A stretch of DNA of 24,282 bases from a virus. Below, piece after piece: positions 2,225 through 8,352 of this stretch (the stretch's first letter is position 1; each line of letters begins with the position of its first letter). The notes under the pieces are model-generated. The model made no database searches, was not told the DNA's origin, and was given only the letters and a program-made list of their open reading frames with translations. The stretch lies in the IMG/VR virus record IMGVR_UViG_3300006735_000243, positions 1 to 24,282 of that record; one strand, given 5' to 3'. The translations under genes were made by a program, and so were the position numbers.

Positions 2225-3071
2225 AGTTTCTTAAACATTTATAGTGTGGGTGTCTGTAAGAGCCTGCTTGAGTTCTTTGAAAGTAAGTAAAGGTAGCACG
2301 CTGACCTATGTAGTCATTAATGTTATCGAGCATACCTGCTAGATCCTTGTAGTCGTATCCTTTGCCCGGTGGGCAGCCGAACTCAACGCCTTCGTCATCC
2401 TGCATGATGAACTTACCAAGCGTGCCTTGCCTCTTACCTTTACCTATTTCATAACCTACGATAACTGCTTCGTCATCGTGAAAATCTTTAAATTTCATAA
2501 GATCCCATGATCTAGTATTTTTATATACACCGTCAATAGATCTGTATATACTACCTTCATAACCTGATCTTAGGTTGTAATTATGTAGTGACATAGCTTC
2601 GTCAAGGTCTAGTGCAACTTTAGTGTTAATAATTACTAGATGAGGGCTAGTTCTAACAACACTAGAGTCAGTTAGTCTTGTTATAAAACCCATACGCCAG
2701 TCATAAGTAGCGTGTGGAAAACTAGCTACATCGTATATATGATATTGTACTAGTTGAGCTGCTTCATCTCTGTGATCTTGTGTTGGTTTAGTTTTTCTGA
2801 CTAATGAAATAATCTTTTCAAAGTCATCTTTTAGTCCGTGGTTATATAATTCGCCATCTAGTATAAGGTTTGGGTATCTGTTAAATACTACTTCTAAGTC
2901 TTTTTTAATGTGATCTACATTTTTAAACTCTTTACCTGTTCTGCTGTATGCACCATCTTTTGTAAATACACATCTTACGCCATCTAGTTTTGGCTGTATG
3001 TATGCAGGGTAATCAGCTTTTTCAGGATTATATTTATGCGCTAGCATAGGTTTAATCTTCGTCTGAGTCAT
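2217..3071 (-). CDS. ATP-dependent DNA ligase
   Basis: This 284-aa protein is a small viral-type nucleotidyltransferase. It joins nicks by adenylating a lysine, transferring AMP to the 5' phosphate and sealing with the 3' OH. Motif I is KLDGVR at 28-33, with K28 as the adenylation site. Motif III is LDGEL at 71-75, motif IIIa IYDVA at 112-116, motif IV EGSIYR at 172-177 and motif V LMKFKDF at 191-197. The C-terminal about 80 residues (from EAVIVGYEIGKGKRQGTLGK) fit the OB-fold domain. The length matches minimal phage ligases, with no extra DNA-binding domain. It should act in phage replication and recombination. Its start overlaps the upstream 100-aa gene by 20 nt. Confidence 0.93.
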   Translation of the reverse strand: MTQTKIKPMLAHKYNPEKADYPAYIQPKLDGVRCVFTKDGAYSRTGKEFKNVDHIKKDLEVVFNRYPNLILDGELYNHGLKDDFEKIISLVRKTKPTQDHRDEAAQLVQYHIYDVASFPHATYDWRMGFITRLTDSSVVRTSPHLVIINTKVALDLDEAMSLHNYNLRSGYEGSIYRSIDGVYKNTRSWDLMKFKDFHDDEAVIVGYEIGKGKRQGTLGKFIMQDDEGVEFGCPPGKGYDYKDLAGMLDNINDYIGQRATFTYFQRTQAGSYRHPHYKCLRNYE

Positions 3072-3354
3072 AATCTCCTTTTCTTAATTTAGTTTTAATT
3101 GCATTTAATTTGCTTAATAATATCGCTGCTTTTTCATATTCTTCTTTATTTTCAAAGATCATAAGCAGAGTTTGTAATCTTGCAAGCTCACCTATTAAAG
3201 CTTCTTCTTCAGTCATAACAAAAGCTTCTTTGCTAGATTCTTTGCCATAAAGATCTTGAACTGAGCTGTGAAACTCATCATCCCACTCTTGTTGTTTAAC
3301 TTCTAGTTTAGCTATAATAATGTCAGCTAATTGATTCATTGTTTTTTTATCCAT
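3052..3354 (-). CDS. Small acidic helical protein, UVR-like C-terminus
   Basis: The 100-aa product is mostly helical and acidic. The segment at about 71-91 (EEYEKAAILLSKLNAIKTKL) resembles the helical hairpin of UVR/UvrB-C-type motifs (E-x-YEKAAxLxxxI), usually a protein-interaction element; similarity to a named family is not certain. The gene starts exactly 6 nt after the GATAAT of a conserved promoter block (3361-3392), so its mRNA may be leaderless. It overlaps the ligase gene by 20 nt and probably leads that transcription unit. Confidence 0.65.
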   Translation of the reverse strand: MDKKTMNQLADIIIAKLEVKQQEWDDEFHSSVQDLYGKESSKEAFVMTEEEALIGELARLQTLLMIFENKEEYEKAAILLSKLNAIKTKLRKGDYDSDED

Positions 3355-3360
3355 AATAAT

Positions 3361-3392
3361 ATTATCTATTAGTTATCGTATTTAGTTTGTAT
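3361..3392 (-). promoter_or_regulatory. Conserved promoter-like block, copy 1
   Basis: Read on the minus strand it is TACAAACTAAATACGA, a six-base spacer, then AATAGATAAT (partly overlapping the spacer boundary). GATAAT ends exactly 6 nt before the ATG at 3354, where a -10 hexamer would sit if transcription started at the A of ATG. The same block recurs seven more times in this arm. Confidence 0.7.
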
Positions 3393-3393
3393 A

Positions 3394-3459
3394 CCACGAA
3401 AAGCCCGTACCTTTTGAGTACGAGCTTACGCCGGGGCGCAATGCCTTTGCTATTCGTGG
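3394..3459 (-). ncRNA. Candidate structured RNA, three-way junction
   Basis: This 66-nt GC-rich island lies in an AT-rich genome. The closing stem P1 pairs 3453-3459 with 3394-3400 (CCACGAA/TTCGTGG, 7 bp). P2 pairs 3436-3441 with 3426-3431 (TTGCGC/GCGTAA) around the loop CCCG. P3 pairs 3418-3425 with 3403-3410 (GCTCGTAC/GTACGGGC, 8 bp) around a 7-nt loop. P2 and P3 abut with no linker; 11 nt join P1 to P2 and 2 nt join P3 to P1. One pair in P2 and one in P3 are G-U on the minus strand but mismatches on the plus strand, so the RNA is probably the minus transcript. It lies between two genes, just before a promoter block. It matches no riboswitch or ribozyme class I know. Confidence 0.55.
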
Positions 3460-3473
3460 AAACTAAACTACTA

Positions 3474-3743
3474 CTAATCTAACAACACGTAGTAAGCTTC
3501 TGGGTTATTCACCCTAAACCAGTTCAATGCTTTGTCAAATTCATCAATTCGTTTTTTAGTTATTGTTGAAGGTGCTGAGTCAAAAACCATTTGACAACCT
3601 ACTATAAAGTCGTAAATGCTTAGTTCTAAGCCAGTTAGCTCATAACTTTCACCTGAGAAAGGGTTTTTAACTGTTTCACCTTTTGTATATATCATGCCTT
3701 TAAACCACTTTGGTGCTGTCGGCTTCTTCGATTTCGTACTCAT
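3474..3743 (-). CDS. Conserved phage hypothetical protein (PKWFKG / NPFSG type)
   Basis: The 89-aa protein has the pattern PKWFKG-x-IYTKGETVKNPFSGESYELTG, then LELSIYDFIVG, and ends WFRVNNPEAYYVLLD. I recognise this as a family of small proteins seen in many marine and enteric phage genomes, with no known function. The start (ATG 3743) overlaps the upstream acidic gene by 44 nt. The structured RNA begins 15 nt after its stop. Confidence 0.7.
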   Translation of the reverse strand: MSTKSKKPTAPKWFKGMIYTKGETVKNPFSGESYELTGLELSIYDFIVGCQMVFDSAPSTITKKRIDEFDKALNWFRVNNPEAYYVLLD

Positions 3744-4149: not shown

Positions 4150-4489
4150 AATTTAATTTTTTAGTAGTATATAAAAATAATGCTTTTAATCTAGCTTTTC
4201 TAGACCATATTCTCATTCTAGCTTTGTTAGTACTTTCATACTGTTTACCGTTTTGGCCGATAGCTTTATAAGGTACATCATAAGTTGGATTTAGTTGATA
4301 ACACATGCCTACGCCTGTTGGTTTATCTTCTTTATACAAGTTTCTTCTAATATAACCTGTTTTATGCTCTGATACTACTTGACCTGTTGGTAGCTTATAA
4401 GCTGTAGTACCATTGGCTATTTGCCTATCTGTTGTAACGTCTTTGCAACCTAGTGCAAGCATCGCTTTTTCATATTGTTTTTCTGTCAT
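4139..4489 (-). CDS. Hypothetical protein (116 aa), basic C-terminus
   Basis: No family is recognised. The N-terminal part (MTEKQYEKAMLALGCKDVTTD) looks helical. The middle has a beta-rich stretch around YKLPTGQVVSEHKTGYIRRN. The C-terminal 30 residues are basic (NKARMRIWSRKARLKALFLYTTKK), compatible with nucleic-acid contact. The gene sits 6 nt downstream of the 76-aa gene and overlaps the next gene by 11 nt. Confidence 0.55.
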   Translation of the reverse strand: MTEKQYEKAMLALGCKDVTTDRQIANGTTAYKLPTGQVVSEHKTGYIRRNLYKEDKPTGVGMCYQLNPTYDVPYKAIGQNGKQYESTNKARMRIWSRKARLKALFLYTTKKLNYEL

Positions 4490-4726: not shown

Positions 4727-4732
4727 ATTAAT

Positions 4733-4764
4733 ATTATCCGTAAGTGTTCGTATTTAGTTTGTAA
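4733..4764 (-). promoter_or_regulatory. Conserved promoter-like block, copy 2
   Basis: On the minus strand it has TACAAACTAAATACGA, then ACACTT, then ACGGATAAT. GATAAT ends exactly 6 nt before the ATG at 4726. It differs from the other copies only in the spacer and in the two bases just before GATAAT. Confidence 0.7.
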
Positions 4765-5432: not shown

Positions 5433-5464
5433 ATTATCTATAAGTGTTCGTATTTAATTTGTAT
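5433..5464 (-). promoter_or_regulatory. Conserved promoter-like block, copy 3
   Basis: On the minus strand it has TACAAATTAAATACGA, then ACACTT, then ATAGATAAT, ending exactly 6 nt before the ATG at 5426. It immediately follows the 3' end of the tRNA-like RNA. Confidence 0.7.
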
Positions 5465-5466
5465 TA

Positions 5467-5638
5467 GAGCGAGAGAGAGGATTCGAACCTCTCATGTCTA
5501 GAACAGTCTGTAACTTCATCGATGGAATTAACTCATTTAATCTGTTACACCTGACCTCGCTGTCCATGCCGAGCCGTCACTCAGCCCTCACAGTTTTTCC
5601 GTTTTCTGCCTGATACGTTACTCAGAAGGGTCTCGGTC
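5467..5638 (-). ncRNA. Candidate tRNA-like / tmRNA-like structured RNA
   Basis: The minus strand carries a textbook T-arm: AGAGG, loop TTCGAAT, CCTCT (5492-5476). An acceptor-like 3' strand ending CTCTCGCTC follows directly. No canonical D-arm (no GG in the loop) or anticodon arm with U33 can be placed, so it is not an ordinary tRNA. Two 5' partners for the acceptor are possible: GACCGAGA (5638-5631, 7 of 8 pairs) enclosing 172 nt, or GCGAG (5560-5556) enclosing 92 nt. Other helices are TGTAAC/GTTACA (5549-5544 with 5514-5509) and a 7-bp hairpin GCTGAGT-GACG-GCTCGGC (5585-5568). The segment GACTGTTCTAGACATG before the T-arm resembles GACTGACTAAGCATG of tmRNA. The exact ends are uncertain. Confidence 0.42.
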
Positions 5639-5644
5639 GTGAGT

Positions 5645-5815: not shown

Positions 5816-5821
5816 ATTAAT

Positions 5822-5853
5822 ATTATCTATTGGTGATCGTATTTATTTTGTAT
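5822..5853 (-). promoter_or_regulatory. Conserved promoter-like block, copy 4
   Basis: On the minus strand it has TACAAAATAAATACGA, then TCACCA, then ATAGATAAT, ending exactly 6 nt before the ATG at 5815. Its upstream part overlaps the last codons and TAA stop of the 53-aa gene. Confidence 0.7.
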
Positions 5854-7258: not shown

Positions 7259-7647
7259 AGTTATTTATTTTTATTAATAGTACCACGATTTACGTTTTTC
7301 ACCACGTGGAGCGATCTTTCGACTTATTTACACTATTTAAAGTTATTAATTTTTGTTGAGTAATATATTCGTTATATTTATAGTCTCTAAAGTATTACTA
7401 TCAACTAAGACTTTTGTTGTTGTTTATTATATTATCTTTACTATATCGTAATTAGTTTGTAACTAAGTTAACATGAGTAAGATCGTTAGTGTAAGTAGTG
7501 TTATTACTTGTAATATTAGTATATTTATTCTATGTTTATTTACCATTTTAGTTTAGTTTAAAGGTGATCAATTATTTATTTATTATTTTTAGTGATGAGG
7601 TATTATGCTATAACTCACTGTATTTAATTAGTTATAATTATTAGTAA
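7259..7647 (-). other. Long intergenic stretch with a leader-like hairpin region
   Basis: I find no convincing gene here. A degenerate promoter block lies at 7431-7462, and a transcript from it would carry an untranslated leader of about 170 nt before the ATG at 7258. Within that leader are a hairpin closed by CCACG/CGTGG (7309-7305 with 7287-7283) and a small stem CGA-AAGA-TCG (7321-7312). The rest (about 7463-7647) is low-complexity AT sequence. Confidence 0.4.
7431..7462 (-). promoter_or_regulatory. Conserved promoter-like block, copy 8 (degenerate)
   Basis: On the minus strand it has TACAAACTAATTACGA, then a variable spacer, then AAAGATAAT. It has one change (A to T) in the otherwise constant TAAATACGA. 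No ATG follows at the 6-nt position, so any transcript would be leadered and reach the 55-aa gene at 7258. Confidence 0.5.
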
Positions 7648-7700
7648 GTGTGACAATAGCCTATTAAGAATACTAGAGTAACAGGCTAGTGTCATAGTTT
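7648..7700. repeat. 53-bp inverted-repeat element, copy A
   Basis: Copy A matches copy B (8277-8329) at 43 of 53 positions with no gaps. Its ends are TGTGACA and TGTCATA (near-perfect inverted repeat), with a second inner pair AGCCT/AGGCT around a 20-nt loop. It begins 7 nt beyond the stop of the 76-aa gene (stop codon 7708-7710) on its 3' side. It could be a terminator (no clear U-tract here), an operator or a small mobile relic. Confidence 0.65.
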
Positions 7701-7707
7701 ACTCAAC

Positions 7708-7938: not shown

Positions 7939-7981
7939 AGTTATTATATTTAGTTATTATTAATTTAGTTTAGTTATTATT

Positions 7982-8013
7982 ATTATCTATTGACAATCGT
8001 ATTTAGTTTGTAA
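7982..8013 (-). promoter_or_regulatory. Conserved promoter-like block, copy 6
   Basis: On the minus strand it has TACAAACTAAATACGA, then TTGTCA, then ATAGATAAT. It is the nearer of two tandem copies upstream of the gene at 7938, with about 43 nt between GATAAT and the ATG. Confidence 0.65.
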
Positions 8014-8058
8014 CTAACTTTGTTTATTTAATTTAGTTTGTTAGTTTGTTATGTATAT

Positions 8059-8090
8059 ATTATCTATTCAGCATCGTATTTAGTTTGTAG
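8059..8090 (-). promoter_or_regulatory. Conserved promoter-like block, copy 7
   Basis: On the minus strand it has TACAAACTAAATACGA, then TGCTGA, then ATAGATAAT. It is the farther tandem copy, 77 nt from copy 6, with no ATG between them. Only the six spacer bases differ between the two. Confidence 0.65.
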
Positions 8091-8245: not shown

Positions 8246-8276
8246 AACTCCTATATTTTTAACAATAATAAAAAAA

Positions 8277-8329
8277 GTGTGACAATAGGTTGTTAATAAG
8301 CCTAGAATAACAGGCAAATGTCACAGTTT
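8277..8329. repeat. 53-bp inverted-repeat element, copy B
   Basis: This is the sister of 7648-7700 (43 of 53 identical). The ends TGTGACA and TGTCACA are a perfect 7-bp inverted repeat. Inside, GCCT and AGGC (8300-8314) can pair. Read on the minus strand, the hairpin is followed by CTTTTTTTATT, a terminator-like tract; on the plus strand it is followed by GTTTT. It could stop convergent transcripts or bind a regulator just upstream of the rightward promoter. Confidence 0.65.
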
Positions 8330-8352
8330 TCTAGTTATTTCAGCATGTAAAA

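Follow-up and report, generated by a model that had tools for sequence, protein, structure and literature searches.

In phage T7, intercistronic hairpins between early genes serve as RNase III sites; unlike the elements described here, they show no module exchange and have no tRNA-like relatives. The TMER RNAs of murine gammaherpesvirus 68 combine a viral tRNA-like unit with other RNA hairpins as cargo, but they are made by eukaryotic pol III, carry miRNA cargo and show no exchange between two frames. T4-type phages reportedly possess mobile regulatory cassettes, which are said to consist of an early promoter and a stem-loop and are not known to have a tRNA-like frame or exchangeable RNA domains; they resemble the present elements in being small, mobile, intergenic stem-loops at sites where genes shuffle. 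To our knowledge, an exchange of folded RNA domains between two distinct frames located at gene junctions is not known from any system.

The RNase P substrates pre-4.5S RNA, phage M3 RNA and phage C4 antisense RNA offer a parallel in that phage-encoded hairpins within longer transcripts are cut by RNase P (PMC11143913); these are single RNAs without exchangeable modules. Mitochondrial repetitive and double-hairpin elements invade intergenic regions of AT-rich genomes and occur as nested copies, as seen here (PMC2800124); no adaptive function is known for them, whereas the present elements are strand-specific, tRNA-like and located beside start codons. The tRNA-like domain of tmRNA (RF00023) has an acceptor stem, a GG-containing D-loop, a T-arm and, where a tRNA has its anticodon arm, a different helix, as does one of the families described below (TLS); TLS differ from tmRNA in lacking the mRNA-like domain and in their hypervariable bodies, and the other family (class A) lacks a T-loop. 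In a literature search covering few subscription journals, no published description of such elements was found, and they apparently constitute a large, undescribed set of mobile RNAs. Their ingredients, i.e., tRNA-like structures, phage RNase P substrates and mobile hairpins, are known, and it is the organisation, with domain exchange and two frames, that appears to be new; their biochemical function may prove ordinary.

The window, i.e., the whole stretch of DNA analysed, comprises 24,282 nucleotides of an IMG/VR virus record (IMGVR_UViG_3300006735_000243) with a genomic GC content of 32% and encodes a sigma factor, a DNA ligase, GroEL, an endolysin and a large terminase. The terminase has its closest annotated relatives in Flavobacterium, Cellulophaga and Tenacibaculum phages and in an uncultured podovirus, which points to a marine member of the Bacteroidota as the probable host; the phages carrying the elements are marine and podovirus-like and probably infect Bacteroidota. 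An ARAGORN scan of the window yielded no tRNA. Searching Rfam 15 at the gathering threshold revealed no family in the window nor in ten element-bearing loci, and permissive thresholds assigned none to the element in the window. In that element, no Rfam motif for a riboswitch, hammerhead, twister or other catalogued ribozyme was found, in agreement with the sequence-only reading made earlier of this DNA, which had reported no riboswitch, hammerhead or twister match.

The class A element of the window (3394-3459, minus strand) is located between an 89-aa ORF upstream (3474-3743, minus strand), for which 22 viral relatives were found, and a 100-aa ORF downstream (3052-3354, minus strand). Folding of the minus strand gave a minimum free energy of -27.9 kcal/mol, whereas shuffled sequences averaged -16.8 (z -4.0) and 0 of 200 folded as well; the z value of the plus-strand fold was -3.7. 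All parts lie on the minus strand. Helix P1 is formed by CCACGAA (3453-3459) and UUCGUGG (3394-3400) over 7 bp, and P3 by GCUCGUAC (3418-3425) and GUACGGGC (3403-3410) over 8 bp with UCAAAAG (3411-3417) as the loop. The P2 module UAGCAAAGGCAUUGCGCCCCGGCGUAA (3426-3452) is an exchangeable arm, which is missing or swapped for unrelated arms elsewhere. P3 contains one U-G pair, where the opposite strand would have A-C, and across the elements U-G pairs are preserved on the sense strand only. The claim of a strand-specific, structured three-helix-junction RNA between two early genes was right, and the homologous regions were found to contain the stems, with a two-sided G-C/A-U change in P3. For the proposed helices of 7, 6 and 8 bp, relatives back P1 and P3, but the 6-bp P2 pairing is one of several candidates: UUGCGC/GCGUAA competes with GC-AAA-GGC..GCC-CCG-GC, and the minimum free energy structure contains a third variant differing from both. 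In the relatives with the same P2 arm (L028, L112 and L119), one pair of UUGCGC/GCGUAA is broken, and in L031 only 4 bp of it remain; these relatives favour neither pairing over the other. A chance hairpin can be dismissed with near certainty given the fold z value, the 49 copies described below and the pair counts in relatives.

Searching the window for the complement of the invariant 3' strand returned the element itself only. The element had been described as a GC-rich island, but it is not isolated, since a promoter-like box (TACAAACTAAATACGATAACTAATAGATAAT; 3361-3391, minus strand) adjoins it ahead of the 100-aa gene and a second structured element is present at 5468-5643. The box is one of 5-8 similar ones in the window; its shared form, TACAAACTAAATACGA-N5-AATAGATAAT, is repeated ahead of minus-strand genes (3361-3391, 4732-4763, 5433-5463, 5821-5853, 7981-8012 and 8058-8089, minus strand) and is probably an early promoter. 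Apart from the window, a few relatives also have a promoter-like box following a class A element, which is absent from most copies.

Pattern scans of viral contigs, together with searches within the underlying records, revealed 49 class A copies including that of the window, distributed over about 35 IMG/VR contigs and located in gaps between co-directional genes; one more copy (L107) is unparsed and stands outside the 49. The 5' strand of P1 was assigned manually from a list of accepted P1 variants, as an automatic best-pairing choice picked wrong partners inside neighbouring genes. Seven candidates (L033, L036, L046, L057, L060, L120 and L121) were rejected by eye as chance pattern matches, L060 being probably a coding match. 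The fixed frame consists of P1 (CCACGAA/UUCGUGG) and P3 (GCUCRUAC/GUAYGGGC). When as many as 3 mismatches were tolerated, the element-bearing records gave only exact or one-mismatch copies of the 3' strand plus one chance match, a near-invariance that is partly due to ascertainment, since that strand was fixed in most scans. P3 occurs in two allelic forms, GCTCGTAC..GTACGGGC and GCTCATAC..GTATGGGC, which differ by the two-sided G-C/A-U change (10 versus 11 sequences), and in L119 the terminal P1 pair is A-U instead of C-G, again changed on both sides. Across 21 distinct class A cores, 95.2% of cells pair, the corresponding values being 93.1% for shuffles and 34-50% for slid controls, with the P1 covariation being weak because the search pattern fixed the P1 3' strand.

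Where measurable, a same-strand gene follows class A copies directly. In 34 of the 49 copies, P1 is followed by a single U and then the AUG of the next gene; in the other 15, the window's among them, the AUG is further off. This spacing bears on whether the element is a transcription terminator or attenuator, with P3 followed by UUUU, an explanation we consider very improbable. P3 with its U-tract does resemble the Thr-leader attenuator hairpin (a weak match, E 0.58), and in the window a promoter-like box comes next. However, a terminator scan based on a GC-rich hairpin with at least 5 U in 8 positions gave no call, only UUUU being present; an AUG after 1 nt leaves no space for a promoter in those 34 copies; and TLS at the same junctions have no U-tract.

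The frame accommodates very different modules. The P2 position is either empty or filled with an arm of up to 131 nt, and the P3 loop comprises 7-8 nt or is replaced by a module of 30-53 nt. In the eight contigs with the closest homologues of the upstream 89-aa gene, the same frame was found with a different P2 arm or none. Module M4 was located within P2 (L005, L055), 5' of P1 (L050, L058, L107) and between tandem cores (L003, L059), and module M2 in the P3 loop (L042, L047) and in P2 (L058). M4 shows two-sided changes in 4 of 13 pairs, while its loops are kept and the GAGUGUG loop is constant. Class A copies are nested and in tandem in L059 and L003; in L059 (see also L094), a tandem array of three cores with interposed modules fills the space between two genes with folded RNA of about 400 nt.

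One of the earlier guesses, a riboswitch, and its variant of a translational operator of the downstream gene would fit the proximity to the start codon and the conserved P1 and P3 sequences. Yet the same frame precedes at least eight unrelated genes and bears unrelated P2 arms, and Rfam gave no match, so that the chance of either is remote; a metabolite riboswitch in particular is unlikely because the P2 arm is not conserved and many unrelated genes stand behind the same frame. Features of attC-like recombination sites, type III toxin-antitoxin repeats and complementarity to ribosome-binding sequences were looked for by eye and were lacking.

The second structured element of the window, B1 (5468-5643, minus strand), is located between the 56-aa and 71-aa genes. 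It comprises a tRNA-like structure (5468-5561) with the acceptor-like stem AGCGAG/CUCGCU, the canonical T-arm GAGAGG-UUCGAAU-CCUCUC and a variable body, together with a hairpin with a UGACGG loop (5568-5585), in which 4 of 6 pairs show two-sided changes across relatives, and a 5' module with the outer stem CUCAC/GUGAG (5587-5643), all on the minus strand. B1 has no anticodon arm and was called by neither ARAGORN nor Rfam. The related TLS were recognised after the 71-aa gene in L012 and L043, with the arrangement GGGCGTG...GGTTCGATTCC...CACGTCC-ACTA. TLS consist of an acceptor stem, a GG-containing D-loop and a T-arm, with a hypervariable body, mostly of 33-143 nt, replacing the anticodon arm.

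A viral scan for the TLS 3' end gave 103 stretches, from which 97 distinct sequences were extracted, 95 of them not called tRNA by ARAGORN. After removal of true tmRNAs (one match each in L136 and L186) and one poor match, the final set comprised 94 TLS. The T-loop TTCGAN(T/C) and the ACTA after the acceptor are present in all 94, as imposed by the search design; in 93 of the 94, GG occupies the D-loop position, taken as the initial 10 nt of the body, and 81 bodies end in AAC. In seven acceptor/T-arm variants, 100% of cells pair, and 9 of 12 pairs show two-sided changes. TLS hence carry the generic hallmarks of tRNA-like structures, and the B1 of the window carries those of acceptor and T-arm. 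Constrained folding produced a three-way junction of acceptor, variable helix and T-arm, as in class A; class A itself lacks this set of tRNA-like features, with an 8-bp P3, loops such as UCAAAAG and no T-loop motif. A co-directional ORF was present within 250 bases on both sides of 67 of the 78 testable TLS, and in 15 of the 97 extracted sequences the acceptor and the next AUG are 3 nt apart, the AUG being further away in most. No RF00023 match to TLS was found in the loci searched, and Rfam searching of TLS-bearing loci returned true tmRNA and tRNA only. Two tmRNAs (L136, L240) have the 3' end CACGTCC-ACTA in common with TLS; the tmRNA genes on the viral contigs L136 (2646-2891, minus strand) and L186 (3220-3359, plus strand) both end in this way.

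The payloads of the two families were compared by blasting 153 bodies, i.e., P2 arms, P3 loops, TLS bodies and B1 bodies. They fell into about 60 sequence clusters with 32 singletons, six clusters spanning frame types, whereas shuffled bodies gave 0-1 matching pairs of any kind per replicate. With 5' flanks included, TLS shared payloads with class A or B1 in 29 pairs in sense orientation and in 0 in antisense, with E values down to 1e-19. The TLS of L178 and the P2 arm of L059 are identical in 47 of 49 nt, and the TLS of L010 matches the class A P2 of L103, L113 and L115 in 32 of 32 nt; beyond this common module, L010 and L115 agree in short stretches only. M4 was also found in the TLS of L164, L201 and L206. 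The motif CC-NCG-GC/GC-AAA-GG recurs in the bodies of L139, L176, L177, L216 and L006 and, judged by eye only, in the P2 of the window with permuted strand order. At the sequence level, frame and payload behave as separate modules that are common to frames and sites on the sense strand only.

These data also bear on the possibility that the elements are intercistronic sites of mRNA processing or stability only, a "punctuation" of RNase III-like or RNase P-like type with the arms as neutral filler. Their location between co-directional early genes and beside the AUG fits this, and true tRNA genes can fill the same junction. Neutral filler, on the other hand, should not reappear as the same module on different frames, nor does it account for conserved loops and compensatory stems in the arms, as in M4 with its constant loop; moreover, no phage RNase III gene was found in 25 contigs, though the host enzyme would suffice. 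We regard this explanation as quite improbable.

Occupancy of the gene junctions varied among contigs. The 56-aa gene is followed by class A, B1 or the promoter box only, with B1 in place of class A in the window, L001, L003, L004 and L008; the 71-aa gene by class A, TLS or nothing; and the 89-aa gene by class A, tRNA-Met or nothing, true tRNA-Met genes filling the equivalent junction in L009 and L012. At the 71-aa gene, L110 reads TAA-[element]-TATG and the empty relatives (window, L001, L008) TAA-TATG. A near-identical class A element is present after the 89-aa gene in L119 and after the 71-aa gene in L112, which are non-homologous sites; in their homologous coding DNA, L119 and the window agree to only 67-74%. 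Across contigs, varied downstream genes were found behind one upstream gene. L012 has, at about 4267-4457, right after the 89-aa gene and before the tRNA-Met, an extended GC-rich region of RNA-like character, which TTGAGAGG/CCTCTCAA closes; this region holds a module also present in the TLS of L131, L168 and L225.

Clean insertion between stop and start, as in L110, the free combination of neighbouring genes, the nesting and tandem repetition observed in L059 and L003 and the near-identical copies at different loci would all be expected of selfish or recombination-prone GC-rich hairpins without RNA function, which spread between genes and help to shuffle the neighbours in the manner of mitochondrial double-hairpin elements or the T4-type cassettes. 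This explanation is nevertheless unlikely, as the copies are sense to the genes and share payloads in sense only, compensatory changes are present with U-G pairs preserved on the sense strand, and TLS retain their tRNA-like GG and T-loop hallmarks (93 of 94).

The sequence comparisons establish structure, modularity, sense-strand constraint, mobility and intercistronic position, and we tentatively favour the explanation that the 66 nt belong to a mobile, modular superfamily of intercistronic RNAs, in which a fixed frame carries a swappable payload and is excised from the early transcript. The fixed frame (P1 and P3 in class A; acceptor, D-loop and T-arm in TLS) would present an exchangeable folded payload, with pairing kept by compensation. 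We infer excision and payload function from the arrangement: the element would be transcribed within the early polycistron and then cut out, which is favoured by the consideration that ordinary initiation should be impeded by a stable helix right before the AUG. For TLS, the natural candidates would be RNase P and RNase Z, and an RNase P step has precedent, since the enzyme cuts several non-tRNA RNAs including phage hairpins (PMC11143913). For class A, some other nuclease may act, as its P3, with 8 bp and no T-loop motif, is not a canonical RNase P/Z substrate. Excision would release a stable small RNA with its payload and leave the downstream ORF with a leader of 0-3 nt where the AUG abuts the helix; in the window, the promoter-like box between element and gene would serve the downstream gene instead, which therefore need not rely on cleavage.

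A processed RNA that cuts the polycistron appears the best of the three guesses made earlier, as it would suit the place beside the start codon, and that interpretation is partly supported overall; beyond it, the arm proved exchangeable, the element repeated and mobile, and a tRNA-like family carries the same modules. Speculatively, payloads could act in trans, e.g., by decoying or inhibiting RNA-binding or defence proteins of the host, and such a role would account for payload diversity. The furthest-reaching version, possible though rather unlikely, is that the phages maintain their small RNAs as a library with shuffled domains, in which dozens of payloads on at least two unrelated frames within early operons would be excised in the course of infection and directed in trans against changing host targets, e.g., defence systems. 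Domain shuffling is familiar in proteins but not in small RNAs, whereas in these marine phages, a widespread group, identical folded RNA domains reappear on two frames. If payloads are released, nature would have its own equivalent of the engineered tRNA scaffold, and about 60 RNA domains would become candidates for a direct search for targets. Excision would further be a simple way to divide the early operons of phages into units whose leaders are very short, a point relevant to hosts making little use of Shine-Dalgarno sequences. Even with inert payloads, a mobile, sense-strand-constrained RNA family would have been overlooked by standard annotation.

Regarding distribution, a DNA search of cultured phages revealed no relatives of the class A element and, for TLS, weak partial matches at the 3' end only; in Flavobacterium phage elemoE and Manatee Spring virus, no TLS or class A copies were found. 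Scanning bacterial genomes for the class A end gave no match. TLS were present on contigs of metagenome-assembled bacterial genomes (L238, L239, L241, L242 and likewise L237), which are probably phage contigs binned with bacteria; a Balneola contig contained a true tmRNA instead. In the window, two 58-nt hairpin-like repeats (7646-7703 and 8275-8332), 81% identical, were additionally observed in the divergent region between gene blocks.
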